From Anaerolineaceae bacterium oral taxon 439 (GTDB lineage Bacteria > Chloroflexota > Anaerolineae > Anaerolineales > Anaerolineaceae), in assembly GCA_001717545.1 (NCBI GenBank), contig CP017039.1, positions 310,001 through 374,000 of the forward strand: a stretch of DNA of 64,000 bases. The letters are read 5' to 3'. Below, piece by piece: positions 2,395-21,947 of this stretch. Position 1 is the stretch's first letter; each line of letters opens with the position of its first letter. The notes under the pieces are model-generated. The model was not told where the DNA came from. It was given only the letters and a program-made list of their open reading frames with translations, and ran no database searches. Both the position numbers and the translations under genes were made by a program.

Positions 2395-3846
2395 ATGAAA
2401 CGTATGAAGCAATGGATGAACGGGAAACGAATGAAAAAAAAGAGCTTACGGACGATTTTCCTGTTGGGATTTTTTGGCGTGCTGGCGATGAGCGGCTGCA
2501 GCAGCGCGGATCAGTCGTTTGCGCTGCCGGCGGGGCACGGTCCGTATCGGACGGTTGAAGCGGAGATAACCGACTTTCCGCAGTCGCTCAGTCTCGTCGG
2601 GTACGTCGAGTCGGCGAAATCGGAAACGGTGAAATGGAAGGTCAACGGCGTAATTGAAAGCTGCGGCGCGGCGTCCGGGGACGCGGTTGAACGGGGCGAT
2701 ATCCTGGCGCGGCTGGAAAACGACTCGCTTTCTCCGACGGTTTTTGAGGCGGAGGCGACGAAGATCACCGCCGATACCGCGATTGACAGGATGCTGATCA
2801 GCGCCGCCGCCAAGGTCAAGGCCTATCAGGAGATGATCGACAAGGAAAAAGCGCTGGCGGACGCGAAAAAGTTCCTGGAAGGGCTGAATTATCCGGTCGC
2901 GAGCGCTTCGGACCTGAAGAGCGCTGAAAAGGCGATGATCGCCGCGCGCGACGCGTACGAAATCGCGCAGGCTGATTTTGAGGGTGTTAAGCTCCGCGCT
3001 GAAACGGACCCGGAACGTTATCAAAAGAAAGACGCGCTTCAAAAAGCGATGAACGCTTTTTTCCAGGCGAATAACGTTTACGTCTATTACCGCGACGGCG
3101 TCGGCGAAGCCGCAAAGGCGCAGGCGCGCGCCGCCGTCTTAACGGCGCAGGCGGCTTACGACGCGGCGGTTCGTGCGTATGAAGATTTTGGCGACCTGTC
3201 GTATAACTCAAACGAGCTGACCGCGAAGTTGAAAGAAGCGGATAAAGCGACGACGGTCGCGGACCGCCGGTCGCCGACGGCGGCGATCAGCGGGACGATC
3301 TCCGAAATGAACTGTGAAGCGGGAACCTACGTTCAGGCGAACGATATTCTGGCGAAGATTGACGATTTGAATACGCTTTACTTTCGGATTAACGCTTCTG
3401 AATTTGATCTGGATAAGCTGAAGGTTGGGATGGAAACTGATATTGTTCTGGACGCGAATCCGGGCGTCAGCCTGACTGGGTCGATCGCCGCGATCGACGC
3501 GACGGCGAAAGCGGCGGCGGACAGCGTCCCGACGTATTCCGTCCTGATTCGGATCGCGAAGCCGGCCGGCGGCGAGTCGGTTGGGAACGTTTACCCGTCG
3601 ATGACCGGGGCGGCGCTGATCCACCTGAATAACCGGGAAGGCGTGCTGTCGATTCCGATCGAAGCGCTTCGGACCGACGAAAAAGGAACGTACGTAGAAA
3701 AGTTAGTTAACGATGAGCCGCGCCGGATCGACGTCGAGACAGGCGAATTCATGGCCGGGCGGGTTGAGTTATTGGGGACCTCGATTCAAAGCGGAGATCG
3801 GCTGGTTGTTCCGGACGTTCTTCCCGCTGGATTGAGCGAACCGTAA
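2395..3846 (+). CDS. HlyD/MacA-type efflux adaptor, lipoprotein (first of four)
   Basis: A periplasmic-adaptor-type protein of about 483 residues that should couple an ABC permease to substrates outside the membrane. The frame is open further upstream, but I start at 2395 because the polar leader, hydrophobic stretch and lipobox (LAMSGC) begin there and an AGAGGA site precedes it. Starts at 2404, 2413 or 2431 are also possible. A lipoyl-like half (WKVNGVIESCGAASGDAVERGDILARLE) is followed by a roughly 180-residue alanine/lysine-rich coiled coil. The second lipoyl half (AISGTISEMNCEAGTYVQANDILAKID) and beta-barrel come last. It is the first gene of the eight-gene export locus, 27 bases before the next adaptor. 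The N-terminal cysteine suggests lipid anchoring on the outer face of the membrane. Confidence 0.85.
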   Translation: MKRMKQWMNGKRMKKKSLRTIFLLGFFGVLAMSGCSSADQSFALPAGHGPYRTVEAEITDFPQSLSLVGYVESAKSETVKWKVNGVIESCGAASGDAVERGDILARLENDSLSPTVFEAEATKITADTAIDRMLISAAAKVKAYQEMIDKEKALADAKKFLEGLNYPVASASDLKSAEKAMIAARDAYEIAQADFEGVKLRAETDPERYQKKDALQKAMNAFFQANNVYVYYRDGVGEAAKAQARAAVLTAQAAYDAAVRAYEDFGDLSYNSNELTAKLKEADKATTVADRRSPTAAISGTISEMNCEAGTYVQANDILAKIDDLNTLYFRINASEFDLDKLKVGMETDIVLDANPGVSLTGSIAAIDATAKAAADSVPTYSVLIRIAKPAGGESVGNVYPSMTGAALIHLNNREGVLSIPIEALRTDEKGTYVEKLVNDEPRRIDVETGEFMAGRVELLGTSIQSGDRLVVPDVLPAGLSEP

Positions 3847-3873
3847 AATCTGGATAAAGGAAACGCATTAAAC

Positions 3874-5667
3874 ATGATGGCAAATTCAATTCAAGGAAAT
3901 CCGAAAAAGAAATCGAAGCGGTCGATGATCGTTATCCTTATTTTGCTGCTGATCCTGGCGGCGTTGGTTGTTCTGATCTGGACGACGTACAGCGCGATGC
4001 TTCGCGAATATCAGGCCGCGCGGGAAGCGATCGCGAACGCGCCGGTTCAGACGGCGGTCGTTGAGCGCGGTGATTTATCGGAGGCGATCGATGATCTGAC
4101 CGGGACGCTGCGCTCGAAACAGAGCGTTTCGCTGTACTGGAAAGCGGCGGGAACGGTCGGGTCGGTTGACGTCGCTCTCGGCGACAAAGTCGAGAAGGGC
4201 CAGGTTTTAGCCGAACTCGACGAAGGCACGATCAGTTCGACGATCAACGAAGCGGCGGTTACGAAAGAAAAGAAAGAGAAAGAACTTGATAACCTGATCA
4301 CGACCGACCTGGCGTTGGCGACTGCGTATAACAAGATGATCACGGCTAAAAAAGCAATCGACACTGCGCAGGACGCAATTCATGCGCTCAGGCTGGCCCG
4401 GAAGAATACGACTGAGCTCAATACTTATTATCAGGATTACCTCAACGCTCAGACTCAGTATCAGGAAGCGCTCGCTTCCTTCGAGGAGCTGAAAGACCGG
4501 CCGGTTGACGATTTCGATCGGCAGATGGCGGCGTCGATGGTCGATGGGGCGAAGTCGGGGGTCGCGAGCGCCGAAGCGAAGTACAACTGGTACAACGGCG
4601 AAGCCGACCCGCTCGAACTGAAAAAAGCCGAGGCGACGCTTAAGCTCCGCGAGGCTGAATACGAAGACGCGGTCCGTGATTATGAGAAAATCATGAACGG
4701 TCCGACCGCGGACCAGATCCGATCGCTCGAAGCGGAGATCAACGCAGCCGCGGCGACGATGAAAACCGCGCAGATTATCGCCCCGATTACAGGGGTTATT
4801 ACCGAGGTCAAGGCGGCCCCGCTTGACGTTATTCAGGCGAACGCCGCCGGGATCGTCAACGAAACGCTGGCGATCCGGATGGACGATCTTTCGAGTTATT
4901 ACGTCGACGTCGATGTGCATGAGAACAAAATCAACGCGATTCAGCTCGGGCAAAAAGTCGAACTGACGTTTGACGCGGTACCTTTTGAAACGTTTACCGG
5001 AACGATTTCGAATTTTTCGACCGTTGGAACGGTTACGAATAATGTGGTTAAGTATTCCGTAACGGTCAAGCTTGACGGCGTCAGTCCGGAGCTGAAGCCC
5101 GGGATGGTCGCCGACTTGAAAATTATTACGGAAGAATATAACGACGTGCTGACCGTCCCGGCTACTGCGGTTGGAATGAACATGAATGGCGAGTCGGTTG
5201 TCGCGGTTCAGGACGCCGACGGCTTGTTCACCGACGTTGTCGTTACCGTCGGATATTCGAACGGAAAAGAAACCGAGATCTCTTCGCAGAGCGGCGGTAT
5301 TTCCGAAGGGACGATCGTTCGCCGCGATTATATCAGCGGGCTGATCCCCGGATTCGGCGGGCCGGCTGTCCCGAGCCTGTTCGGATGGCCGCTCCCCGGT
5401 TTTGCCTCGGATCAAGGCGCGCCGGAGATACCGATGAGCGCTGGATTTGTCGCGAGCGGGGATATGATCCCCGGAGGCGGAGCTCCGGCGGAGATGAACG
5501 GCGCGGTCATGCCGCAGGACGCCGTTCCGGAAAATATGGCTCCGGAGGATATGGCTGCGGGGGCGGAAGGCCCGATGTCGGCCGGCCCGGGCGCGGAAGC
5601 GGAAGCCCCGATGACGGCCGAGCCAGGCGCGGAGGCGGAAGCTCCGGCGGATTCGCCGGCGAACTGA
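3874..5667 (+). CDS. HlyD-family efflux adaptor, TM-anchored, with long acidic Pro/Ala/Gly/Met-rich tail (second of four)
   Basis: A 597-residue adaptor that starts with a lysine-rich cytoplasmic segment and one transmembrane helix (residues about 19-40, IVILILLLILAALVVLIW), not a lipobox. Then come a lipoyl half-motif (GTVGSVDVALGDKVEKGQVLAELDE), a long coiled coil (about 125-290), the second half (IIAPITGVITEVKAAPLDVIQA) and beta-barrel domains. The last 110 residues are unusual: low-complexity, rich in Pro, Ala, Gly, Glu and Met. They contain a near-exact tandem copy of a 13-residue unit that includes PGAEAEAP. This tail is absent from the other three adaptors here. An AAAGGA site precedes the start; ATG at 3877 is also possible. 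It works with the ATPase and permeases that follow. Confidence 0.85.
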   Translation: MMANSIQGNPKKKSKRSMIVILILLLILAALVVLIWTTYSAMLREYQAAREAIANAPVQTAVVERGDLSEAIDDLTGTLRSKQSVSLYWKAAGTVGSVDVALGDKVEKGQVLAELDEGTISSTINEAAVTKEKKEKELDNLITTDLALATAYNKMITAKKAIDTAQDAIHALRLARKNTTELNTYYQDYLNAQTQYQEALASFEELKDRPVDDFDRQMAASMVDGAKSGVASAEAKYNWYNGEADPLELKKAEATLKLREAEYEDAVRDYEKIMNGPTADQIRSLEAEINAAAATMKTAQIIAPITGVITEVKAAPLDVIQANAAGIVNETLAIRMDDLSSYYVDVDVHENKINAIQLGQKVELTFDAVPFETFTGTISNFSTVGTVTNNVVKYSVTVKLDGVSPELKPGMVADLKIITEEYNDVLTVPATAVGMNMNGESVVAVQDADGLFTDVVVTVGYSNGKETEISSQSGGISEGTIVRRDYISGLIPGFGGPAVPSLFGWPLPGFASDQGAPEIPMSAGFVASGDMIPGGGAPAEMNGAVMPQDAVPENMAPEDMAAGAEGPMSAGPGAEAEAPMTAEPGAEAEAPADSPAN

Positions 5668-5757
5668 ATCAGGCGCGCCGCGCGGTTTCCGGCGCGATCA
5701 GCGATTATGGATACGGGTCCCGGTGGTTGGGGCCCGACAGGAAGAAAAGAGATTTGA

Positions 5758-6678
5758 ATGACAGAACGAAAAGACCAAAACGTAATTCATACCGAACACC
5801 TCTGCAAATATTATGCGTTGGGGGACGTTGAGGTACGGGCGCTTCACGATATTTCGATTGATATCAACTACGGCGAATTCGCCGCAATCATGGGTCCTTC
5901 CGGATCGGGAAAGTCGACGTTGATGAATATTCTGGGCTGTTTGGATCGACCGACGTCGGGGAGCTATCTTCTCGACGGAACGGAAGTTTCCGAAATCAGC
6001 GATAACCGCCTCGCGGAAATCCGCAACCGTAAAATCGGTTTCGTTTTCCAGAGCTTCAACCTGCTGCCGCGGATTTCGGCGTTGGAAAACGTCATGCTGC
6101 CGCTGCTGTACTCGAAAAATAAATCGAGAGCGCGCGACCGCGCCCTCGAAGCGCTTGAACAGGTTGGCCTCGCGAAGCGCTCGAAGCATAAGCCGAAGGA
6201 GCTTTCCGGCGGTCAGCAGCAGCGCGTCGCGATCGCGCGCGCGCTCGTCAACGATCCGGAGATTATCATGGCGGACGAACCGACCGGAAACCTTGATTCG
6301 AAATCCGGAAAAGAAATCATGCAGCTGCTGATCCGGCTGAATAAGGAAAACGGGAAGACGGTCCTGATGGTGACGCATGATCCCAAGATCGGCGCGGTTG
6401 TCCCGCGCGTGATTTCCGTGTTTGACGGGATGCTCGGGTCGCAGGAGGAGCAGGAAATCCTTCAGTCCTGGCGCCAGATCGATTATAGTCAGGCGACCGA
6501 GGAAGAACGGGCGGCTGTTCGCGAAATGATCGCGGAAAAAGCCCGCGCAAAGGCCGAATTTAACACGGCGAACGGGATCGCTGAGTCTGAAGAAGACGTT
6601 CACGCGGGAAACGCGTCCGCCGCGGAGGCGATCGCCGAGGCGTTCGGAAACGGCGCGGCGGAAAAGGAAGCGAAGTAG
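5758..6678 (+). CDS. MacB/LolD-type ABC transporter ATP-binding protein
   Basis: The only ATPase of the export locus. Motifs are complete: Walker [10 protein letters not shown] (46-54), Q-loop Q98, signature LSGGQ (149-153), Walker B IIMADEP (169-175) and switch histidine H207. It also has PTGNLD, characteristic of the MacB/LolD/YknY family of ATPases that drive FtsX-fold permeases. At 306 residues it is longer than the usual 225-250. The extra C-terminal 80 or so residues after the H-loop region are charged and alanine-rich ([10 protein letters not shown] and [19 protein letters not shown]). The tail has no recognised domain. The gene lies between the first adaptor pair and three permeases, so it probably serves all three. 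Confidence 0.93.
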
Positions 6679-6710
6679 GGAGGCCGGGAAACGATCCGGG
6701 ACAAGGCGAG

Positions 6711-7952
6711 ATGGGATTGCGGCGCCTGATATCCGAGGCTTTTCAGACCCTTCGGTCGAATAAGGGCCGTTCATTTTTGACGTTGATCGGAATCGTTATC
6801 GGGATCAGCTCGGTTATTACGATTATTTCCGTTGGGCTCGGCGTCCAGGCGTATATCGACATGGAAACGTCGTCTCTCGGCGCGAACGTGGTCATGATCC
6901 GGGCGGGGAATTTCGTCGGCAGCGAAGACGGATATTCCCTGATTTCCCGCGGCGATCTGAACGAAATCTGCGGCTTGCCTTATGTTATCGACTGTACGCC
7001 GGTCGTTGAAGCGATTAAGGTCGCGGGCGGCGCCGGGGACCGCTCGGTCAGCCTCATTCTCTACGGGTACAGCGAGTCCGGTATCGATCTGGCCGGGAAC
7101 GAGCTCGTTCATGGACGCGGCTATACAAAGGAAGAGATCCTTGACGCGTCGCCGGTTATCGTCACCTGGCAGCCGGTCGCGGAACGGCTCTTCCCCGGCG
7201 TTTCGAACGGGGCGATCGGCGAAAAAATCCTGATCGATAACGTTTCGTACGAAATTATCGGCGAGTATGCCGAACGCGGCTTCGGTCAGGCGGTTACGGC
7301 GCAGTTCAGTTTCGCGTCCGTTCCGTATACCGCGATGCAGCTCCGGCACCTCGACGCAGACCGGAACCATTATGCCAGGATGATGGCGTTTGTCGATTTA
7401 TCCGCTAAGCCGATCGGCGAGGCGATGGACGAAATTGAGACCCTGCTCCGCCGGCGTCATCAGATTACCGGGAGCGAGCGATCCGATTTCATGATCACGA
7501 CGTCAACTGAGATGCTTGGCATGATTGAAACGGTGACGAAGACGTTCGTGATCTTCCTCTCCGGGGCCGCGGGAATTTCGCTTCTTGTCGCCGGGATCGG
7601 GATCATGAATATCATGCTGGTTACGGTTACCGAGCGGACCCGGGAAATCGGGCTGCGAAAAGCCGTCGGCGGGACGAACTTCGATATCCTGACGCAGTTC
7701 CTTTTTGAGGCCGCCGTGCTGTCGATGGTGGGCGGGCTGATTGGAATCGCGCTGGGGCTGGGAGCGTCGTTCTGCCTCGAAGCGGTATTCCGTTCGCTGG
7801 GGAACGGGTTTGAAATGATCCGTGCTCAGGTGGATGTCGGGGTGGTCGGGCTGACCGTCCTGTTTGCCGGGACCTTTGGAGTGGTATTCGGTTTCGCGCC
7901 GGCGCGGAGAGCGGCAAAGATGGAACCGGTTCTGGCGCTGCGTTCGGAATAA
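6711..7952 (+). CDS. MacB/YknZ-type ABC permease (FtsX fold), first of three
   Basis: A 413-residue permease with the MacB architecture. It has an amphipathic N-terminus, TM1 (FLTLIGIVIGISSVITIISVGLG) and an extracytoplasmic MacB_PCD domain from about 45 to 270. Three TM helices of the FtsX domain follow. The conserved GIGIMNIMLVTVTERTREIGLRKAVGG segment forms the coupling region with the ATPase. It ends with PARRAAKMEPVLALRSE, typical of the family. The substrate is unknown. It resembles the two following permeases over its whole length (same TM positions and coupling motif), so the three probably arose by duplication. It is spaced 32 bases after the ATPase gene. Confidence 0.92.
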   Translation: MGLRRLISEAFQTLRSNKGRSFLTLIGIVIGISSVITIISVGLGVQAYIDMETSSLGANVVMIRAGNFVGSEDGYSLISRGDLNEICGLPYVIDCTPVVEAIKVAGGAGDRSVSLILYGYSESGIDLAGNELVHGRGYTKEEILDASPVIVTWQPVAERLFPGVSNGAIGEKILIDNVSYEIIGEYAERGFGQAVTAQFSFASVPYTAMQLRHLDADRNHYARMMAFVDLSAKPIGEAMDEIETLLRRRHQITGSERSDFMITTSTEMLGMIETVTKTFVIFLSGAAGISLLVAGIGIMNIMLVTVTERTREIGLRKAVGGTNFDILTQFLFEAAVLSMVGGLIGIALGLGASFCLEAVFRSLGNGFEMIRAQVDVGVVGLTVLFAGTFGVVFGFAPARRAAKMEPVLALRSE

Positions 7953-7994
7953 CCCGGTGGAACGCAGGATGGAACAGAAAAGGGAAAGTATTGG

Positions 7995-9239
7995 ATGAAT
8001 ATAAAGTTTTTACTCTTGGAAGCGTTAAGAAACTTACGGGCGAATAAGGGCCGTTCGTTGTTAACGATTTTGGGGATTCTGATTGGCGTCAGTTCAGTTA
8101 TTATGATGACTGGAATTGGGTTAGGCGTTCGCCGTGCATTAAACAGCCAGCTTTCAGATCTGGGAACCGACGAGATTTATATCTACGAAGGATATTATTC
8201 GAGCGAAGGAATGAGCGCGTTCGCCCGGTTGACGAAGGGCGATTACGACGCGATCTGCTCGCTGCCGATTATAAAAGACTGCAGCCCTGAAATCGGCAAC
8301 AGCTATCCGGTCGTCGGCGAAGGGGGCACCAGCGCGACGGCGAACCTGTCCGGGTATAGCGAGGCATATTATCGAAACGAAACGCTGAAGCTCGCTTCCG
8401 GGCGGAATTTTACGAAATCTGAAGTCGAAGGCGCCGCCATGGTTGTTCTGCCCGACGAAAACGCGGTCATGCGTCTTTTTCCGAACGATACACCTGAAAC
8501 GGTTATCGGGAAGAAAATCAAGATTCGGGATCTGAATTTTGAAATTATCGGTGTTCTAAAGAATTCGAGTACGACGATTTCTTATGGGAATATGATCATG
8601 GCGTCGGTCCCGTATACGGCGATGACGCTTCGGTTAAGCCCGGACCGACGGATCAATATCGCCTCGATGATCGCGTTTATCGATCCGGAGAAAACGACCG
8701 CGGCTGAGGCGACGACCGTGATTACCGCGCTCCTTCGCGAACGGCATTCGCTTTCCGAGACCGATTCAGACGATTTTACGATCCAGCAGGCGCAGGAATA
8801 TATCGAATCGACCGATCGGATTTCAAAGTCGTTCGTGATCTTTCTCGGCGGCGTTGCGGCGATTTCGCTCCTTGTCGGCGGGATCGGGATCATGAATATC
8901 ATGCTCGTCGTTGTCTCGGAACGGACCCGCGAAATCGGGCTTCGGAAAGCGATCGGGGCGAAGAAAGCCGATATCCTGACGCAGTTTCTTTTTGAATCTG
9001 CGATCTTATCTCTTTTCGGCGGATTTGTCGGGATTTTCTTCGGTGTCCTGACGTCGGAAATTCTTGCGGTCCTGCTGCGCTCGTCGGGACAGGGTTTTGA
9101 TGATTTTTCGGTGGTGATCAGCGCGCCGATCCTGTTCGGAGCGCTGCTGTTTTCGGCGATGTTCGGGCTGTTTTTCGGATTTTATCCGGCGAACCGTGCC
9201 GCGGAGCTTCAGCCGGTCACCGCGCTTCGATCGGAATAA
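7995..9239 (+). CDS. MacB/YknZ-type ABC permease (FtsX fold), second of three
   Basis: A 414-residue paralogue of the preceding gene. TM1 is SLLTILGILIGVSSVIMMTGIGLG. An extracytoplasmic domain of about 220 residues is followed by GIGIMNIMLVVVSERTREIGLRKAIGAKKADILTQFLFE and the last two TM helices. It ends ANRAAELQPVTALRSE. The extracytoplasmic domain is tyrosine-rich near its start (EIYIYEGYYSSEG), unlike the first copy. That is where substrate specificity of MacB-like permeases is expected to differ. It could pair with either neighbour as a heterodimer or act as a homodimer. The sequence does not decide this. Confidence 0.92.
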   Translation: MNIKFLLLEALRNLRANKGRSLLTILGILIGVSSVIMMTGIGLGVRRALNSQLSDLGTDEIYIYEGYYSSEGMSAFARLTKGDYDAICSLPIIKDCSPEIGNSYPVVGEGGTSATANLSGYSEAYYRNETLKLASGRNFTKSEVEGAAMVVLPDENAVMRLFPNDTPETVIGKKIKIRDLNFEIIGVLKNSSTTISYGNMIMASVPYTAMTLRLSPDRRINIASMIAFIDPEKTTAAEATTVITALLRERHSLSETDSDDFTIQQAQEYIESTDRISKSFVIFLGGVAAISLLVGGIGIMNIMLVVVSERTREIGLRKAIGAKKADILTQFLFESAILSLFGGFVGIFFGVLTSEILAVLLRSSGQGFDDFSVVISAPILFGALLFSAMFGLFFGFYPANRAAELQPVTALRSE

Positions 9240-9314
9240 AAAAATACCGGCGTTCCGCTTCTTCGCCGTTAGCCTGGAGAAGGATCATCTGGAACGCTTG
9301 AAAGGAAAGAACTT

Positions 9315-10544
9315 ATGAATTTACTCGCGTCTATACGGGAATCCCTGCGGAGCCTGCGCGCGAATCGGATGCGTTCCGGGCTGACGATGCTGGGGATCTT
9401 TATTGGAATCGGCGCGGTAATCGCGATGTCTTCGGTGGGTTTCGGCGTTCAGAAAAGTATGACGTCGGAATTCGAAGCGCTGGGCTCGGATAAGCTTGAA
9501 ATCTTTTCGGGAAGCGTGACGCAAAATGTCCGCAACCAGAAACAATTATCAGCGAGCGACGTTGAAGCGATCAGGAAGGTCCCCTTCGTCGCCGCGGTTT
9601 CGTCGACGCTTCAGCTCGGAAACGCGACGGTCTCCCGCGAAGATATTTCGAGCGCATCGCCCGTGACCGGCGTCGACGCCGGTTACTTCGAGACTCAGGG
9701 CGCTTCGTTCGCCGCCGGCCGCGGCTTTTCCGAAAAAGAGTCCGCAAGCGGCGCGTTCGTCGCGGTCATTGGGAGCGATATTCGAAAGCGCTTCTTCAGC
9801 GACGAAACGGAGGCGGCGATTGGGCGATCTATCCGGATTAATAATCAGGTGTATACGGTCGTGGGCGTCTTGAATCCAAAGAACAGCGGTATGGGCGGGT
9901 CGCTGAACCGCGCCGTTCTCGTTCCGATGGGGACGATGGAAAACCGGCTCCTTCCCGCGCAGCGGGGAAAGCGGCAGACGATCGGCGTCAAGGTCAGGAC
10001 GAACCTGATTTCGATTACAGCGGCTGAAAAGGAAATCAAGGATGTCCTGCGCGAGCAGCACGGGATCGAAGCGAATGGCGCCGACGATTTTTCGATCATG
10101 AATATCGGAACGTATCTTGAAACGTTCAATCAGGTTTTCACGGTTTTCGTCCTCTTCATGAGCGCGGTTTCCGGGATTTCGCTCGTCGTTGGCGGAATCG
10201 GAATTATGAATATTATGCTCGTGACCGTTACGGAACGGACGAAAGAAATCGGGCTTCGAAAAGCGATCGGCGCGAACAGCGGCAACATTCGCATGCAGTT
10301 CCTGATCGAATCGGCGGTGCTCTCGCTCGTCGGCGGTATTTTGGGTATTTTATTCGGTATCGCGTTGGCGTATCTGATTGGGTTTATCGCGAGCTCGATG
10401 GGCTATCCGATCGACCCGGTGATCAATCCGATGATGATCCTGAGCGCATGCGGTTTTTCGATTATGATTGGTATATTTTTCGGGGTTTATCCGGCGGGCC
10501 GGGCCGCGGCGCTCCAGCCGGTCATCGCGCTCAGGACGGAGTGA
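9315..10544 (+). CDS. MacB/YknZ-type ABC permease (FtsX fold), third of three
   Basis: A 409-residue third paralogue. TM1 is SGLTMLGIFIGIGAVIAMSSVGFG. The coupling segment GIGIMNIMLVTVTERTKEIGLRKAIGANSGNIRMQFLIE and the tail PAGRAAALQPVIALRTE match the other two copies. It is separated from the second permease by 75 bases with an AAAGGAAAG ribosome site. It is followed after only 15 bases by the third adaptor, so this permease may have come with the second adaptor pair. Function is export of an unknown amphipathic substrate or protein, by analogy with MacB and YknZ. Confidence 0.92.
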   Translation: MNLLASIRESLRSLRANRMRSGLTMLGIFIGIGAVIAMSSVGFGVQKSMTSEFEALGSDKLEIFSGSVTQNVRNQKQLSASDVEAIRKVPFVAAVSSTLQLGNATVSREDISSASPVTGVDAGYFETQGASFAAGRGFSEKESASGAFVAVIGSDIRKRFFSDETEAAIGRSIRINNQVYTVVGVLNPKNSGMGGSLNRAVLVPMGTMENRLLPAQRGKRQTIGVKVRTNLISITAAEKEIKDVLREQHGIEANGADDFSIMNIGTYLETFNQVFTVFVLFMSAVSGISLVVGGIGIMNIMLVTVTERTKEIGLRKAIGANSGNIRMQFLIESAVLSLVGGILGILFGIALAYLIGFIASSMGYPIDPVINPMMILSACGFSIMIGIFFGVYPAGRAAALQPVIALRTE

Positions 10545-10559
10545 AGCGGAAGGGCGCGT

Positions 10560-12053
10560 ATGGAAAGGATTGGGATGAAAAAAAAGATTGAGAACGATTG
10601 GGAGCGAATCGGAACGAAGCTTCTGGGAGGCGTTGTTGCCGTCTTGCTGACGCTGATGCTTGGATTGGCCGCGGGCTGCGCCCCGTCGGGGGCGTCAGCG
10701 CCGGACGCCGGCATGATGGATGAATCAGCCTCAGAGGTGTACACCGTTCAAACCGGGACGCTTAAGAAGTCGATTGAATTCCTTGGAAATATCGAGTACG
10801 AGCAGGCGGCGAAATTAAAATGGGAAACGGGCGGCGTGATCGGCGCCGTGAACGTCAGCGTCGGGGACCGGGTCAAAAAGGGCGATATCCTGGCGGAGCT
10901 GACGACGGATTCGCTGTCGACGGCGGTCCTGAACGCGGAAAAGGAACTGGTGTCCGCGATGGACGCCGCCGCGGACGTCATGGTTTCCGAGGTCAAAAAA
11001 TATCAGGCGCTGGCGACGCTGGCTTTCGACGAGGTCTCGCTGAAGGCGACGAAGGCGGCGCAGGAAAAGCTCTATTATCCGCGGGGAACGTCGCAGGATC
11101 TGGAGATGGCTTACGATTCGCTTCAGTTGGCCGAAAAGAATTTCGGCTACGCTAAGCAGGATTTCATGAACGTTTTGGATAACTATAAAAGCTGGGGCGA
11201 GGACGAAACGCGCGCGACGTATTTCGAATCGTATCAGCAGAATTATCAATCGCTTCAGAGCGCTTATGCGAAGTGGAAATACCTGCGTCAGGCTCCGGAA
11301 GCGGTCGAGTTAGCGTTTGCTCAGGGAGCGGTTGCCAACGCGCAGCGGATTTATGACGAAGTCCTGAAGGAATTCAATTCATACAGCTCGATTCCGCGGG
11401 CAAAGGACCTGAAGAGCGCGAATTCCGCCGTCGATCTCGCTGAAAATACGTATGGACAGCGGTATATTACCGCTCCGTTCGACGGGTTGGTCGCGAGCGT
11501 CAGCGCTGAAGTCGATCAGGTCGTCGCCAAGGATACCGACGCGATACAGCTTGTCGACGATTCTGCGTATTACCTCGAGGTTCAGGTCAACGAGGTCGAT
11601 CGCGATAAGGTTGCCGTAGGTCAGCCAGTCGCGATCCGGATCGACGTTCTTCCCGGACGTACTTACGCGGGAAAGATTATTAAGATGGATAACGCCGCCG
11701 TCGTTTCGAATTCTGGAATTAAATTCGCCGCGCTGATGAAGCTTGACACGCTGGATCCGGAGATCAAGGCGGGAATGTCGGCGTCGGTCGAGTTCCCGAC
11801 GGCGACGATTGAGGACGTCCTGCTGGTCCCGGTCAGCGCGATTACGACGAAGAATGGCGTTCGGACGGTTCAGCGGATTACGGCGAATGGGACGGAACCG
11901 GTCGAGATTACGATTGGACGTGTCAATACGTTTGCCGCTGAGGTTACCGGCGGCGGGCTGCGGCCTGGGGACCGGCTGTCGGTTCCGTCGATCGATCCGC
12001 GCTTTTACGAAGTCAGCGGGATCGCCGCTCCCGAAGCGTCGGTTCAAAAATAG
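10560..12053 (+). CDS. HlyD/MacA-type efflux adaptor, lipoprotein (third of four)
   Basis: A 497-residue adaptor with a basic N-terminus, hydrophobic segment and lipobox (LGLAAGC), so probably lipid-anchored. The lipoyl half ETGGVIGAVNVSVGDRVKKGDILAELT comes first, followed by a coiled coil (about 120-300). The second half (ITAPFDGLVASVSAEVDQVVA) and beta-barrel end the protein. Two starts are possible. ATG at 10560 has GGAAGGG five bases upstream; ATG at 10575 has AAAGGA six bases upstream. Either leaves the signal intact. It is organised like the first adaptor, and together with the next gene it repeats the lipoprotein plus TM-anchored arrangement at the start of the locus. Confidence 0.85.
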   Translation: MERIGMKKKIENDWERIGTKLLGGVVAVLLTLMLGLAAGCAPSGASAPDAGMMDESASEVYTVQTGTLKKSIEFLGNIEYEQAAKLKWETGGVIGAVNVSVGDRVKKGDILAELTTDSLSTAVLNAEKELVSAMDAAADVMVSEVKKYQALATLAFDEVSLKATKAAQEKLYYPRGTSQDLEMAYDSLQLAEKNFGYAKQDFMNVLDNYKSWGEDETRATYFESYQQNYQSLQSAYAKWKYLRQAPEAVELAFAQGAVANAQRIYDEVLKEFNSYSSIPRAKDLKSANSAVDLAENTYGQRYITAPFDGLVASVSAEVDQVVAKDTDAIQLVDDSAYYLEVQVNEVDRDKVAVGQPVAIRIDVLPGRTYAGKIIKMDNAAVVSNSGIKFAALMKLDTLDPEIKAGMSASVEFPTATIEDVLLVPVSAITTKNGVRTVQRITANGTEPVEITIGRVNTFAAEVTGGGLRPGDRLSVPSIDPRFYEVSGIAAPEASVQK

Positions 12054-12119
12054 AACTGCAAGTTTTCGCGCGGAGCCATTCAGGCGGTGCCGCGCGGATA
12101 AAATACGAGGAAGATAAAG

Positions 12120-13607
12120 ATGGATCGTAATATTCAGGTTGAGAAGAAGAACCGGGTTCCCGGCTGCGTGATTGCTTTGCTTATTTTGTTGATTCTGATC
12201 GCCGGCGGGATTTTATATGTATTGAAGAGTGGGATGGTTTCTCAGGGGCCCTCTCCTGACATGCTGGGATCGTTGATGGGATCGTCGACGACGACGGTGG
12301 CGCATGGAAATCTGACCGCCGCGATTGACGAGGCGTCGGGAACTGTCCGTTCTAATCGCAGTATTACACTGAAATGGAAAACGACCGGAACGGTTTCGGC
12401 GATTCACGCCGCGATCGGCGACCGGGTCAAAAAGGACGAGGTTTTAGCGGAACTGAGCCCGGATACGCTTCCGGTTTCGGTTCTGTCGGCGTCCGTTGAG
12501 CTGGCTCAGGCTCAGGAAGATTATGCGAAGCTTGAAAATACGGCGGAACGGATCGCGAAAGCGCTGAGCGAGCTCGTCACAGCCCAGAAAGCGGTTGACG
12601 ACGCGAAGCAGGCAGTCGCGGACCTGGACCCGAATCTGGCGTCGTCGGATGCGGTCCGAATTGCGTATGAGAACTACCAGAAGGCGCAGGCGCAATTCGA
12701 CGCGTCGAAGGACAAATTTGAAGAGGTTCGCTCCGCCGATCCCGATAACGACGCGCGGAAAAAGCGAATCGGCGACGTCGTCGGCTATCGGAACGCGCGC
12801 GATAACGCGCTCGCGGAATACCGGCGTTACCTGAACGGCGGAGACGCGCTTGAACGCGAGATCCGCGAAGCTGCGCTGCAGCTGGCGGAGGCGACGCTCA
12901 TCGAAAAACAGCAGGCATACGAAGACGCTAAAGCCGGCCCGACCCAAGCCGAGTTAGCGGCGGCGCAGGCGAAAATTTCCGCAGCTCAAACGACGATCGA
13001 TTATGCGAAGCTGATCGCGCCGTTCGACGGCGTAATTACGAAGCTTGACGCGAAGGTTAATGAGACGATCACCTCTGATCAGGTTGACGTAACGACCGCG
13101 GCTCAGATCGACGATTTGTCGCAGCTCTTTGTCGATATTGCGGTATCGGAATTGGAAATATCGCAGGTGAAAGTGGGTCAGGAAGCGACCGTCCAGTTCA
13201 TTTCGATTCCGGGCCGCGTTTATCATGGCGTCGTGTCTTCGGTCGCGGATACCGGGAAAACGGATACGAATAATAACTCGGTAAGCTTTACCGTCACGAT
13301 CCGGCTGACGGACGCGGACGCCGCGGTCGTTCCGGGATTAACGGCGGATATTCAAATTCCGATTGCAAGCGCGACGGACGTGAATTACCTGCCGATTCAG
13401 GCGGTGTACATGGAAGATGGGCAGGCGTATGTGAATCGGATCGAAGCCGACGGCTCGACGACGAAGATTCCTGTCGAATTGGGCGTTATGAGCGGCTTGC
13501 ATGTCGAAGTGAAGTCTGACGAGCTCTCCGAGGGACAGGAGGTCGAGACGTTTGATAAAAGCGGCTCGGACGATATGAATAGCATGCCGCAGATCATGTT
13601 TTTCTGA
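12120..13607 (+). CDS. HlyD-family efflux adaptor, TM-anchored (fourth of four)
   Basis: A 495-residue adaptor anchored by one N-terminal helix (VIALLILLILIAGGILYVL). It contains the lipoyl half TTGTVSAIHAAIGDRVKKDEVLAELS and a long coiled coil rich in Ala, Glu and Lys (about 115-295). LIAPFDGVITKLDAKVNETIT and the beta-barrel follow. It closely parallels the second adaptor (for example the AAIDEASGTVRSNRSITLKW start against AIDDLTGTLRSKQSVSLYW) but lacks the low-complexity tail. It is the last gene of the operon and is followed by a terminator at 13633. Confidence 0.85.
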   Translation: MDRNIQVEKKNRVPGCVIALLILLILIAGGILYVLKSGMVSQGPSPDMLGSLMGSSTTTVAHGNLTAAIDEASGTVRSNRSITLKWKTTGTVSAIHAAIGDRVKKDEVLAELSPDTLPVSVLSASVELAQAQEDYAKLENTAERIAKALSELVTAQKAVDDAKQAVADLDPNLASSDAVRIAYENYQKAQAQFDASKDKFEEVRSADPDNDARKKRIGDVVGYRNARDNALAEYRRYLNGGDALEREIREAALQLAEATLIEKQQAYEDAKAGPTQAELAAAQAKISAAQTTIDYAKLIAPFDGVITKLDAKVNETITSDQVDVTTAAQIDDLSQLFVDIAVSELEISQVKVGQEATVQFISIPGRVYHGVVSSVADTGKTDTNNNSVSFTVTIRLTDADAAVVPGLTADIQIPIASATDVNYLPIQAVYMEDGQAYVNRIEADGSTTKIPVELGVMSGLHVEVKSDELSEGQEVETFDKSGSDDMNSMPQIMFF

Positions 13608-13916: not shown

Positions 13917-14588
13917 TTGTATCAGAGTTCACGCTTATTACTCGAAAGACGAATCGCGCTCCTTTATGGGGCGGAGTCGCTCCCAATGGCGGCGCTCGAT
14001 TTGGTCATGAAAGAGATGTGCGCGATTCGTGGATTTCGGCGGTTCGATGGAAGCGATTTTTATATGCATTGCGTCGACGTCGCTAACTTTTTAATCTCAT
14101 ACGGGATTACGGATCGGGACGCGATCGTTGGCGCGCTGCTTCATGACATGATCGAGGACGTCCCCGGCTATACTGAGGAAGGTCTGGCGGTTCTCTTCGG
14201 TGAGAAACCGGCGCGCTATGTGTCGCTGGTCAGTAAGAAACCGGACTGCGATTATCACGACCCTGCCGTTCTTACCGGGTATTTGGACGAAATATCCGCG
14301 GACGTTTACGCTGCCGCGATTAAGACTGCCGATCGGATGCATAACATGTCGACGCTTTTTGAAGCCGGGATCGAGAAACGCTATCGGAAGGCGATCGAGA
14401 CAGAAACGTACTTCATTCCGTTCTTTAAACAGTGCAGAAAGCGATACCCGCGATACGAAAGTCTTTTTCAGGCGGCGAAAACGCATATCCAGCCGCTGAT
14501 TTTCGAGATCAAGTCGCATTACGCGGATTATTGTGAATTGAGCCGGCTGCGAGAGAGGAATGAGGCGGATCAGTGTGCTGATTTATAG
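13917..14588 (+). CDS. Small HD-domain protein, probably (p)ppGpp hydrolase-like
   Basis: A 223-residue protein that I start at TTG (13917) because GAAAGGTGG sits seven bases upstream and no ATG is suitably placed. It has the metal-binding HD signature of the RelA/SpoT hydrolase domain: H51, then ALLHDMIED (H76-D77), and TADRMHNMSTL with D139, which matches the KLADRLHNMRTL block of Rel enzymes. No synthetase, TGS or ACT domain follows. It therefore resembles stand-alone small alarmone hydrolases (MESH1-like). The role would be removal of alarmone or a related nucleotide in the cytoplasm. It is monocistronic, bounded by a terminator on each side. Another HD phosphohydrolase role cannot be excluded. 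Confidence 0.75.
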   Translation: MYQSSRLLLERRIALLYGAESLPMAALDLVMKEMCAIRGFRRFDGSDFYMHCVDVANFLISYGITDRDAIVGALLHDMIEDVPGYTEEGLAVLFGEKPARYVSLVSKKPDCDYHDPAVLTGYLDEISADVYAAAIKTADRMHNMSTLFEAGIEKRYRKAIETETYFIPFFKQCRKRYPRYESLFQAAKTHIQPLIFEIKSHYADYCELSRLRERNEADQCADL

Positions 14589-19038: not shown

Positions 19039-19998
19039 TTATCGCCTCCCGCCTCGGTCCGGCTGGAACCCCATCGTTTTCAGCACGGCCGGGTTATTCA
19101 TCCAGTTCTTCGCCGTCTTCACCCGCAGCTCCAGGTACGCCTTCCGATCGAGAAGCTTCTCGATCTCGACGCGCGCGTCGGTCCCGATTTTTTTCAACAT
19201 CGATCCGTTCCGACCGATGACGATGCTTTTATGCGCTTCGCGGTCGAGGAGGAGCGTCGCCTGAATGTACGACTGCGTATCGCTTCGGTCGACAAATTCG
19301 TCGATCCGGACGCCGATCGAATGTGGGATTTCTTCGTCAAGGTTCATCAGCAGCGCTTCGCGGATCAGGTCGCGGACGATCTCGCGCTCGTACAGGTCGG
19401 TGATCTGGTCCGGGTCGAAGAAGCGCGGACCTTCCGGGAGCCGTTCGATCAGCGTTTTCAGCAGTTCGGCGCAGCCCATGCCGGTTTGCGCTGAAATCTC
19501 AATAAACGACGCGCCGGGAAGCGCGCTTCGGAAGTCCGCGCCGGGATTCTCGCGGCTCTTCCCGCGGAGGAGGTCGATTTTATTCAGCGCGACGATAACG
19601 CTCCCGGACAGGTTCAATTTTCGAAACGTTTCCGCGATCGCCGTGTCGTCGGCGCTGATCCGTTCGGACGCGTCGACGATCCAGAGGATCCAGTCCGCGT
19701 CGGTAAACGTCCCTTTGGCCGCGTCGTTCATGATCTCGCCCAGCTTATTCTTCGCGCGGTGGATTCCCGGCGTGTCGATCAGGATCAGCTGCGCGCTGTC
19801 GGTCGTGATAATACTGAGCTGGTTCCGCTGCGTCGTCTGAGGACGGGGGGAGACGGCGGCGATTTTCTGGCCTAAAAGGCGGTTCGTCAGCGTCGATTTC
19901 CCGACGTTCGGTCGGCCGACGACGGCGACGTAGCCCGATTTAAACGGCTCCGCCGCGTGGGGGATCTCATCGTTCGAATTCAGCAGCGTTTCGGTCAT
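19039..19998 (-). CDS. era: GTPase Era
   Basis: A 319-residue GTPase for 30S subunit maturation. It binds the 3' end of 16S rRNA through its KH domain. Switch and nucleotide motifs are present: G1 GRPNVGKST (28-36), G2 in the TTQRN segment, G3 DTPG (75-78), G4 NKID (139-142) and G5 ISAQTG. The KH domain (about 210-300) carries VIGRNGSMLKKIGTDAR. The N-terminal 20 residues are an extra polar extension. It is the last gene of a four-gene minus-strand cluster and its start overlaps the preceding GIY-YIG gene by 32 bases. It converges on uvrC. Confidence 0.96.
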   Translation of the reverse strand: MTETLLNSNDEIPHAAEPFKSGYVAVVGRPNVGKSTLTNRLLGQKIAAVSPRPQTTQRNQLSIITTDSAQLILIDTPGIHRAKNKLGEIMNDAAKGTFTDADWILWIVDASERISADDTAIAETFRKLNLSGSVIVALNKIDLLRGKSRENPGADFRSALPGASFIEISAQTGMGCAELLKTLIERLPEGPRFFDPDQITDLYEREIVRDLIREALLMNLDEEIPHSIGVRIDEFVDRSDTQSYIQATLLLDREAHKSIVIGRNGSMLKKIGTDARVEIEKLLDRKAYLELRVKTAKNWMNNPAVLKTMGFQPDRGGRR

Positions 19999-20320
19999 CT
20001 GGATTCTCCTTCGGTTCGGACGGGCGCGCCTCGATGGGCGCTGTCCATGCCATTTTCTCTTTTTTTGCGTGCGGATAGCGTTTAATTTCGATTTCGCGCC
20101 GGAGCGCGTCGGTCTTCGAGGCGACTTCTTCTAAATAAACGAGCTCCACCGGCCGGTGCGTCCGCGTGTAGGCTCCGCCGGCGCCGCTGTTATGCTGCCT
20201 GACGCGGCGAACAGGATCCCCCGTCCAGCCGGTATAAAAGCTTCCGTCAGCGCAGCGGACCATATAGCAGTAATAGCGCTTCGCCGGCCGCGGGGCCTCG
20301 GACGCGCCGCCCTCGCTCAA
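19967..20320 (-). CDS. GIY-YIG domain protein (UPF0213/YhbQ-YazA type)
   Basis: A 117-residue single-domain GIY-YIG protein. The nuclease core reads YYCYMVRCADGSFYTGWTGDPVRRVRQHNSG, followed by PVELVYLEEVASKTDALRREIEIK with the conserved glutamate-containing helix. Small proteins of this type are widespread and have been linked to DNA structure-specific cleavage in some bacteria, but the biological role is unclear. The C-terminal 25 residues are charged and coincide with the overlap into era. The stop-start overlap with the TyrA-like gene upstream (20317-20320) shows a tightly coupled operon. Confidence 0.85.
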   Translation of the reverse strand: MSEGGASEAPRPAKRYYCYMVRCADGSFYTGWTGDPVRRVRQHNSGAGGAYTRTHRPVELVYLEEVASKTDALRREIEIKRYPHAKKEKMAWTAPIEARPSEPKENPDDRNAAEFER

Positions 20321-21309
20321 TTCTTTTTTTTTCCGGACAGGAGGCCGCCTAAAAAGAACTGGCTCAGCGTTTCGCTCATCGAAGTCCGTTCCGGTTTGAC
20401 CTCCGCTTCGGAGCGCCAGGCGGCTTTTTCATACTGCTCGATCCAGGTCCGGCGGTTGGCGCTCGTCTCGTCAAAAAACCGGCTCAGCCTTTCCGCGTCT
20501 TCGTCTCGGAGCGCGTCGCGGAGCTCCTTCATCGCCGCGGTCGCCTCATGAATCGCCAGCAGCGCGTTTTCCCGGTTCGCCAGTAGTTCCAGCGCGCGGT
20601 TCAGTCCCGTCTCGTCCTGGTTCCCGATCCCGCTCAGCGCATGGAACGGTTTCCCGCCGAGCTTGCGTTGGTCGCTCCAGCCCTGACCGCGGAAAGCGGC
20701 GGCTGAAAACGCGGCCGCGGCGATTTTCGGCGCAAGCTCTGACCGCGCCGTCAGCGCGTCGATTTCCGCCGGCGCGAAAAACGCGCTATGCGCCCCTAAC
20801 AGGATCGCGAAGTCTTGTGCTAAATGCAAAAGCTCCGGATCGGTCGTTTCCGTCGCCGCGATCGTCAGCGTCCCGTCCTTGAACAGGTCTTCGCGCGCGC
20901 TGCGCCAGCCTTCCTGCGCCTCGGCAAGCCGCGCCGGGCTCAAGGCCGCGTGCAGACCGACGAACTGATCCGGGTTGGGGAGATATTTCCGCGCGAGCCG
21001 ATTCGCCCGAACCTTATTCAGACTGAAATCGAGGATGCCGATATCTTCCGGCAGGTTCGGCGCGATCGCGTCCAATACCGGTTCCAGTTCGCCATCCGGA
21101 ACGGCAATCACGATCAGATGAGCTTTTTTTACCGCGTCCGCGTAGGAATGCTCGATTTTGTCCACCGCGTCTACGCGTTTCGCGGCCTCCTCCGCGCTTT
21201 TACGGCTGTCGAGGCCAACACGAAAAATATCTTTTTTCTGATAGCGAAGCGCTAAACCGACGGAGGCGCCGATTTCGCCGAGTCCGATAAGTGTCAATTG
21301 AAGCTGCAT
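20317..21309 (-). CDS. TyrA/prephenate dehydrogenase-like NAD(P)-binding protein
   Basis: A 330-residue protein with an N-terminal Rossmann fold (LTLIGLGEIGASVGLAL). The helical C-terminal half is organised like prephenate dehydrogenase. In true TyrA enzymes a histidine-proline motif sits after the Rossmann domain. Here the corresponding segment reads VGLHAALSP, where the histidine is kept but the proline-x-x-glycine part is not. The C-terminal region is also diverged. It may act on a different substrate or be a regulatory homologue. No aromatic biosynthesis genes lie nearby; the context is era and a site-2 protease. It may well use NAD(P), but the reaction is open. Confidence 0.7.
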   Translation of the reverse strand: MQLQLTLIGLGEIGASVGLALRYQKKDIFRVGLDSRKSAEEAAKRVDAVDKIEHSYADAVKKAHLIVIAVPDGELEPVLDAIAPNLPEDIGILDFSLNKVRANRLARKYLPNPDQFVGLHAALSPARLAEAQEGWRSAREDLFKDGTLTIAATETTDPELLHLAQDFAILLGAHSAFFAPAEIDALTARSELAPKIAAAAFSAAAFRGQGWSDQRKLGGKPFHALSGIGNQDETGLNRALELLANRENALLAIHEATAAMKELRDALRDEDAERLSRFFDETSANRRTWIEQYEKAAWRSEAEVKPERTSMSETLSQFFLGGLLSGKKKN

Positions 21310-21317
21310 ATGCGCGG

Positions 21318-21947
21318 TTAAACTCCTGTCATGAAGCGAAAGAGGGAGGATACGATCGGGTTCAGGACCCGCGAAAACAAGTCGATTCGCAGGTACGGCA
21401 GCACGAGAATCAGGACGAGGAGCAGCTGCGGCCCGATCGCCTGAACCCGGGTCCAGCCGCCTCTGAATTTTTCAGGGACGAACGGATCGAGAACCTTTGA
21501 CCCGTCGAGCGGGGCGAGCGGGATCAGGTTGAAAATCGCCAGACTGATATTGATGAACGTGAAATTCGCTAAGAAATAAGCGGGCCATCCGGAACTCGCC
21601 GCCGGAAGGCGCAGCCGGATGATCATCCCGGAGATCAGCGCCAGCAGGAGGTTTGAAAGCGGTCCCGCGATCGAAACGAGCGCCAGCCCGACGCGGCTGC
21701 GGCGGTTGACGATATCGGCGCGAACCGGAACCGGTTTCGCCCAACCGAACCCCACGAGCATCAGCATCAGCGTTCCGGCGATGTCCAGATGCGCCAGGGG
21801 GTTCAGCGTCAGCCGTCCGGCGTTTTTCGCCGTGTCGTCCCCGAGCGCGGTGGCGACGCGGGCGTGCGAATACTCGTGAACCGAGAACGCGACAACGAGC
21901 GTCAGCGCACGGACGATGTATAATGATAGTTGATCGAGACGTCCCAT
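21318..21947 (-). CDS. Site-2 protease family (M50) membrane metalloprotease
   Basis: A 209-residue membrane protein with the zinc motif HEYSH (H24, E25, H28) in its first helix. The third ligand is in the motif FNLIPLAPLDG (D148). It lacks a PDZ domain and matches the short group of M50 proteases common in Gram-positive and Chloroflexi genomes. About five hydrophobic segments are visible. It would cleave substrates within the membrane. The gene is the first of the minus-strand cluster and is eight bases before the TyrA-like gene. Its natural substrate cannot be inferred from the context. Confidence 0.9.
   Translation of the reverse strand: MGRLDQLSLYIVRALTLVVAFSVHEYSHARVATALGDDTAKNAGRLTLNPLAHLDIAGTLMLMLVGFGWAKPVPVRADIVNRRSRVGLALVSIAGPLSNLLLALISGMIIRLRLPAASSGWPAYFLANFTFINISLAIFNLIPLAPLDGSKVLDPFVPEKFRGGWTRVQAIGPQLLLVLILVLPYLRIDLFSRVLNPIVSSLFRFMTGV

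Follow-up and report, generated by a model that had tools for sequence, protein, structure and literature searches.

YknWXYZ of Bacillus and Spr0693-0694-0695 of Streptococcus pneumoniae are among the closest described counterparts of the system examined here, an eight-gene run at positions 2395-13607 of a 64,000-nucleotide stretch (the window) from Anaerolineaceae bacterium oral taxon 439. YknWXYZ belongs to a monoderm and has separate ATPase, MacB-like permease and adaptor genes in one operon (PMC4338810, PMC8277102, PMC4446572; papers with PMC numbers are cited for passages of their text). However, it contains one adaptor and one permease plus YknW, a protein with four transmembrane (TM) segments, whereas the window run encodes four adaptors (A1-A4), one ATPase (N) and three permeases (M1-M3). 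No YknW-type gene was found in this run, where all eight genes belong to other families; the search for one did not extend beyond the run. Spr0693-0694-0695 is a monoderm MacAB-like pump in which a hexameric adaptor tube stands on an ATPase-permease dimer (PMC5768738). Its permease is matched by M3 (E 2e-38), but this system also has a single adaptor and a single permease, and its adaptor (5xu0) is weakly matched by A4 (E 4e-4). MacAB-TolC shares the MacB_PCD/FtsX permease and the HlyD-type adaptor, MacA being the nearest structure to the models of A3 and A4. In contrast to the window, with split genes, four adaptors and no TolC match, it has a fused ATPase-permease, one adaptor and TolC. The NCBIfam equivalog cut-offs for MacA (342 bits, best adaptor 72.7) and MacB (966 bits, best permease 252.8) are not reached; the MacB score is low by design, since that model spans the fused ATPase-permease and the window genes are split.

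LolCDE is not known to use HlyD adaptors. It uses one ATPase gene for two different FtsX-type permeases (PMC8277102), but it sorts lipoproteins in diderms. TriABC-OpmH of Pseudomonas combines one transporter with two different adaptors, TriA and TriB, which are 36% identical and both required (PMC4338810); its transporter is of the resistance-nodulation-division type, its host is a diderm and it has two adaptors rather than two pairs. The window likewise encodes several unlike adaptors with one transporter, as A1-A4 fall in four clades. A sequence search with A4 returned a weak match to structure 6vej, presumably TriA-TriB. Desulfitobacterium DSY0927, listed among Gram-positives, joins two unlike adaptor modules to one ABC (ATP-binding cassette) transporter (PMC4338810), although in one fused chain instead of four separate genes. 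Multi-adaptor and multi-permease relatives are thus already known (TriABC, LolCDE, DSY0927), and it is the eight-gene form that is new within the MacB/YknXYZ kind. Long-hairpin adaptors in bacteria without an outer membrane have been called puzzling or hard to rationalise (PMC4338810, PMC4446572). Literature searches found no paper on Anaerolineaceae with MacB and efflux, none on Vexp1-3 and, judged by title, none on this operon under Flexilinea and ABC transporter; those for an FtsX-like permease with HlyD or with three permeases gave papers unrelated by title.

We consider it moderately probable that the locus encodes a MacB/YknYZ-type (type VII ABC) exporter of a monoderm-like cell, with a composite adaptor tube and one ATPase serving M1-M3. 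Gene content, order, conservation and paralogy are observed, as is the lack of a match to the two outer-membrane families searched; co-assembly, a hetero-ring, its stoichiometry, and transport and its direction are inferred. Mechanotransmission would couple two copies of N, as the motor, to a dimer of FtsX/MacB permeases. Substrate would be taken at the outer membrane face and pushed into a HlyD/MacA-type adaptor tube, whose hairpin regions of about 190 residues would cross the space towards the wall. The ring is most likely a mixture of lipoprotein and TM-anchored adaptors (A1/A2, A3/A4), as proposed for TriA/TriB, rather than a MacA-type homohexamer. The single ATPase would most likely serve M1, M2 and M3, as homodimers or heterodimers, because the permease gene has tripled in this species; M1-M2 is the likeliest pair, as the two are sisters. 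Substrates like those of YknWXYZ and Spr0693-0695, antimicrobial peptides or amphipathic toxins, are suggested by family analogy only.

Gene content and cell envelope

The eight open reading frames (ORFs) are all on the + strand and closely spaced, the intervals between them being 27, 90, 32, 42, 75, 30 and 66 bp (Table 1). A sequence-only reading of the window had proposed four adaptors, one ATPase and three permeases, and the Pfam families agree: four HlyD-type adaptors (PF16576/PF13437), one ABC_tran ATPase and three MacB_PCD+FtsX permeases. The best Pfam E-values per protein range from 8.7e-15 to 3.6e-42, and Pfam and NCBIfam concur on each ORF. A1-A4 all exceed the curated cut-off of 94.9 bits of TIGR01730 (periplasmic adaptor subfamily), and M1, M2 and M3 each exceed both Pfam cut-offs, for the MacB_PCD outer domain and the C-terminal FtsX domain. 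N scores 126.8 bits with ABC_tran (cut-off 25), and its Walker and signature motifs were read by eye in the translation; its top NCBIfam models, LolD and MacB, both stay under their equivalog cut-offs. Lipobox and TM assignments come from a simple script and a reading of the N-termini; the TM-anchored A2 and A4 each have a single N-terminal TM segment, and the Cys35 numbering of A1 and A3 depends on the chosen starts. These assignments bear out the proposal of a duplicated lipoprotein+TM pair around one ATPase, and in the adaptor tree A1/A3 and A2/A4 are sister paralogues.

Table 1. The eight genes of the exporter run, with window positions
Gene	Product	Position	Strand	Evidence and remarks
A1	Lipoprotein HlyD/MacA-type adaptor, 483 aa, lipobox Cys35	2395..3846	+	HlyD_D23 3.6e-17; TIGR01730 101 bits
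A2	TM-anchored adaptor, 597 aa, long low-complexity C-terminal tail	3874..5667	+	HlyD_D23 8.7e-15; TIGR01730 113.5 bits; TM from residue 17
N	MacB/LolD-type ATPase, 306 aa, C-terminal extension	5758..6678	+	ABC_tran 1.1e-36
M1	MacB/FtsX-type permease, 413 aa	6711..7952	+	MacB_PCD 8.5e-26; FtsX 4.3e-17; sister of M2 in trees
M2	MacB/FtsX-type permease, 414 aa	7995..9239	+	MacB_PCD 1.6e-31; FtsX 6.2e-20
M3	MacB/FtsX-type permease, 409 aa	9315..10544	+	MacB_PCD 3.6e-42; FtsX 7.5e-21
A3	Lipoprotein adaptor, 492 aa, lipobox Cys35	10575..12053	+	TIGR01730 134.4 bits; alternative in-frame ATG upstream at 10560
A4	TM-anchored adaptor, 495 aa	12120..13607	+	TIGR01730 133.7 bits; TM from residue 17

The source genome is a single 2.95 Mb contig, 99.89% complete, from a member of the same GTDB genus as Flexilinea flocculi (Chloroflexota, Anaerolineaceae). 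Neither OEP/TolC (PF02321) nor Omp85 had a match anywhere in it, whereas each was positive in 7 of 14 control genomes. This supports the earlier remark that no TolC-like gene is present. The source cell appears monoderm, as had been surmised; the lack of a match to either family in a nearly complete single contig, with responding controls, supports this. Another Anaerolineaceae genome has been judged monoderm through its protein profile (PMC5481317).

Adaptor pairs in the genus

We searched the 13 other genomes of the GTDB genus (congeners G001-G013; G009 is F. flocculi, G000 the source genome) with N; the Pfam adaptor search was run on G000-G008 and on five more genomes of the order. One close relative of N (68-77% identity) occurs in 11 of the 13 congeners; in G003 and G008 none was found at E<=1e-100 or at 1e-60. 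The complete operon, lipoprotein-TM-N-M-lipoprotein-TM, is present in nine: G001, G002, G004, G005, G006, G009, G010, G012 and G013. All nine have both lipoprotein+TM pairs and none keeps just one, and each of the 11 congener loci holding N has exactly one permease (two of these loci are on short contigs). In G003, G007 and G011 the operon is in pieces. That of G011 is cut inside A2 by a contig end. In G007, N-M is on one short contig, and a second contig holds A4 and a broken A3. G003, an assembly 80% complete, carries A1-A2 and A4 plus a cut A3 on two different contigs, and neither N nor M was found in it. In G007 the A3 reading frame is split into two ORFs (L066 1139-2831; L146 3359-5051, the same contig), either a pseudogene or an assembly error. 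G008 (98% complete), with two HlyD matches and without such an ATPase, seems to lack the operon. MacB_PCD matches number 1 to 6 per congener genome in total, some outside the fetched loci, and five congeners have a second, weaker ATPase match.

The four-adaptor design is therefore common to most of the genus, and permease triplication is seen only in the window's species. Gene order is conserved across the nine complete congener loci; neither scattered independent operons nor one ATPase per permease, named beforehand as outcomes that would speak against a joint system, was seen in these relatives. Adaptor duplication and permease triplication were separate events, since the relatives have one permease in the operon.

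In a midpoint-rooted tree of 51 adaptors, A1 (10 rows), A2 (10), A3 (11) and A4 (11) form separate clades, with support of 100/98, 100/99, 100/98 and 100/99. A1 groups with A3 at 100/100 and A2 with A4 at 99/99. As each member of one pair is sister to its counterpart in the other, the simplest account is a duplication of the whole lipoprotein+TM pair that preceded the radiation of the genus; with a midpoint root, its order relative to the single adaptors is tentative. The lipobox Cys is invariant across the A1 and A3 alignments.

Of the two arrangements raised by the sequence-only reading, parallel or composite adaptor assemblies, the parallel one is disfavoured if it means a pair of adaptors for each permease. 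As four adaptors stand beside a single operon permease in nine congeners, the pairs did not originate to serve separate permeases. The better option, and our best reading by analogy with TriAB, would be a composite adaptor tube on one MacB-type motor. A possible but doubtful alternative is that two pumps share the motor, with separate A1/A2 and A3/A4 tubes swapped on the N-M core for different substrates. The two pairs are indeed old, well separated paralogues, as this alternative would have it; however, both stand in one operon with a single permease in nine of nine complete congeners. This genus, with F. flocculi (strain TC1) among its species and a pump that has kept two lipoprotein+TM pairs, is a natural setting in which to test for mixed adaptor rings.

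The stretch between the lipoyl halves is 190, 189, 192 and 189 residues long in window A1-A4. Over the genus it is 189 in 21/21 A2 and A4 proteins, 190-196 in A1 and 190-213 in A3. Predicted folds were obtained for A3 (model m7d494c5e9f13; 11 sequences, mean predicted local distance difference test score (pLDDT) 70.8, predicted template modelling score (pTM) 0.43) and A4 (model m50d264fc2af1; 10 sequences, pLDDT 79.6, pTM 0.46). In both, a long hairpin, its helices spanning roughly 116-203 and 211-294, accompanies the lipoyl and barrel strands. MacA of MacAB-TolC is the best PDB neighbour of each (E 2.0e-23 and 3.6e-22, respectively); the template modelling scores are modest, 0.39-0.44 on the query, and the root-mean-square deviation is high, over 13 A. 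Among solved relatives found by sequence, A4 matches MacA best, and M3 matches MacB, then 5xu1 (Spr0694-0695).

E231, Y276 and T293 of Escherichia coli MacA have been named as contacts closing the barrel ring (PMC8277102). We mapped these positions by alignment with MacA of strain MG1655, in which the Tyr column was not reliably aligned. The ring Glu is kept in 42/42 genus adaptors. At the ring Thr position, Thr is found in A1 (10/10), A4 (11/11) and A3 (10/11, the window A3 having Ser), whereas A2 has Met (9/10) or Val (1/10). Adaptors of other loci have Thr in 59/60. In the 24 adaptors of ten multi-adaptor loci described below, which include one distinct subfamily and are not independent, Thr is kept in 10 and Glu in 23. 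As a control, 42 columns have one residue in at least 90% of the 60; A1, A2, A3 and A4 lose 2, 4, 4 and 2 of them in all members, one lost column being common to A1 and A3. Each adaptor has thus specialised, and A2's change falls on a named ring contact.

Some of these adaptor data count against mixing. The A3 hairpin region measures 209-213 residues in G004, G005, G006, G012 and G013, compared with 189-196 in their A1, A2 and A4, as might be expected of separate tubes. In nine adaptors that occur singly, eight from the order and one from Atopobiaceae, the same stretch is mostly 189 residues (7/9), so hairpin length by itself gives no argument for mixing. The loss of Thr in A2 points to specialisation rather than to a mixed ring, as it is one of four columns lost there and the others lose 2, 4 and 2.

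Permeases and the shared ATPase

N is the sole match at E<=1e-60 in the source genome, where MacB_PCD (E<=0.001) is found in M1, M2 and M3 only. The three permeases are 42% (M1-M2), 35% (M1-M3) and 38% (M2-M3) identical, which rules out a mis-assembly repeating one gene. M1 and M2 are sisters at 100/99, and all three lie inside the genus clade at 100/99, a placement on which a foreign origin of M1/M2 was rejected, though the branches are long. M3 is the best window match for 11/11 congener permeases (43-50% identity). The triplication was probably an in-place duplication, and long branches make its order tentative. In a second permease tree all three window permeases stand together on one side of a weakly supported branch (77/73) and group with G001/G002/G011 at 90/100, as in the adaptor tree. 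The alternative placing M1+M2 outside M3 and the single permeases is not rejected by the approximately unbiased (AU) test (p 0.357); across the orders of duplication tested, alternatives gave p 0.357-0.413. The trees that had been proposed support the duplication of the adaptor pair; three permeases are not a shared design, the congeners having one in the operon.

The outer domain has diverged most: M1, M2 and M3 are 24, 26 and 32% identical to six congeners, which are 56% identical among themselves. Residues 263-345 have diverged least, with 64, 69 and 65% to the congeners and 83% among these. A fast outer domain with a slow 263-345 segment would be compatible with M1, M2 and M3 still being driven by one ATPase. 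Two observations weaken this inference: the single permeases of the congeners have the same pattern (56 vs 83%), and a 232-aa ATPase elsewhere in the genome, 48% identical to N, could in principle also serve the permeases. The latter adjoins a 1334-aa protein with two FtsX matches (G000:C1, about 809,300-814,000; L148 4319-8993), the only other PF02687 place found in the source genome.

M1 and M2 might instead be duplicates of little own function, the working system being a congener-type six-gene pump with M3. We regard this as unlikely. Three permeases in the operon occur only in this species, and window M1 and M3 have the longest branches within the genus; on the other side, M1 and M2 are full length, keep the genus-invariant segment GIGIMNIMLV.V.ERT.EIGLRKA.G and, though only 42% identical to each other, keep the C-terminal PA..A....PV.ALR.E. 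If one ATPase does serve M1-M3, a speculative further step is that, below a shared four-subunit composite tube, it powers either of two alternative dimers, M1 with M2 or M3 with itself. Substrate range would then be widened by changing the permease alone, in an exchangeable-permease MacB-type pump of a monoderm. The window's species offers a natural case in which to test whether permeases share one ATPase.

F. flocculi (L059 7573-9915; domains confirmed in this species) and G010 (L043 6017-8291) encode two signalling proteins between the permease and A3, a sensor kinase (HisKA_3) and a response regulator (LuxR-type). Such an arrangement would be consistent with induction of the pump by an envelope signal. 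It would also suit a device for envelope remodelling or sensing, of the FtsEX or BceAB kind, and FtsX-type permeases do have such roles (PMC8277102, PMC5985334). We nevertheless consider a non-pump function improbable: the MacB_PCD domains and four long-hairpin HlyD adaptors fit export, and there is no hydrolase gene within the eight-gene run (partners elsewhere were not sought; a gene for an M55 D-aminopeptidase lies 1.2 kb downstream of the run).

Other loci of the order and surroundings

Sixty-nine loci of the family and order were taken from the best ATPase matches; they are not a random sample, and some end at contig ends. Outside the genus, one adaptor before N-M is the rule, and more than one adaptor was detected in 10 of the 69: A-A-N-M in L075, L101, L106 and L130, A-A-A-N-M in L108, L114, L127 and L132, and A-N-M-A in L081 and L112. 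L077, whose second adaptor is nearly 2 kb away, and L131, with two successive A-N-M units, are not counted among the ten. Of the 24 adaptors in the ten, 21 were called TM and three were unassigned; none is a clear lipoprotein, and one TM-called adaptor (L127, 8731) has a lipobox-like match under a looser test. Lone lipoprotein adaptors occur in L098, L109 and L126. Ten of the 12 adaptors of L108, L114, L127 and L132 carry Ser, Asn, Gly or Met at the position of the ring Thr. Nowhere among the 69 loci does one ATPase stand next to two or three permeases, and four adaptors do not occur in any of them.

A second set of ten loci was chosen for tandem or odd MacB_PCD permease matches. They include M-A-N-M in G058 (L138) and another A-A-A-N-M in G022 (L142). 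No ATPase was found at L134 (G051; A-M-M, the second M broken), L135 (G071; two adaptors and two spaced permeases) or L136 (G077; an adaptor and two spaced permeases), which suggests that ATPases are shared in trans. Permease multiplicity therefore exists in the order, yet three in one run with one ATPase were seen only in the window. A scan of 84,980 genomes for the A3 family gave at least 18 loci; among the matches listed, 11 are of this genus and seven are distant (22-29% identity). A wider spread of the four-adaptor type was rejected, as the best non-genus match listed, in a metagenome-assembled genome (MAG) of Atopobiaceae, is a plain adaptor-ATPase-permease locus. PADLOC assignments to an anti-phage system (mad3, mad8 for the ATPase and CARF_LolE_TM for M3) were judged to be generic ABC/FtsX similarity.

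A YitT gene (64-67% identity) adjoins A1 at the same place in the window, G001, G002, G009 and G010. Downstream of A4, the window, G001, G002 and G010 share one series of genes, encoding the M55 D-aminopeptidase, a cation-efflux protein and then proteins of 177 and 620 aa. These shared neighbours indicate that the window operon occupies its place in the nearest relatives. A chance gathering of genes is ruled out by the genus-wide order together with the shared YitT (four congeners) and the four downstream families (three). The four genes next upstream of YitT in G001, G002, G009 and G010 are found at window positions 19039-21947 on the - strand, a local rearrangement in the window's species. 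None of the window's neighbour genes lies within the fetched stretches of G004, G005, G006, G012 and G013 (goat-gut and RUG MAGs). An HD-domain gene at 13917 in the window is not common to the congeners.

Residues 227-306 of N (6436-6675) form a disordered-looking C-terminal extension absent from five aligned family ATPases. A motif like SAAxALAEAFGNG is present in this extension in the window, G001, G002, G007 (three copies), G009, G010 and G011, and is missing from the ATPases of five other aligned congeners. Sought in other proteins of the source genome, the end motif gave one extra match, as did a reversed control pattern. A scan returned 8 promoters and 20 terminators, against 5.4 and 17.7 in shuffled sequence. 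The tail of A2 (about 5330-5667) is long, is rich in Ala, Pro, Glu and Met and contains near-repeats, and Gly/Pro-rich tails end many congener adaptors.

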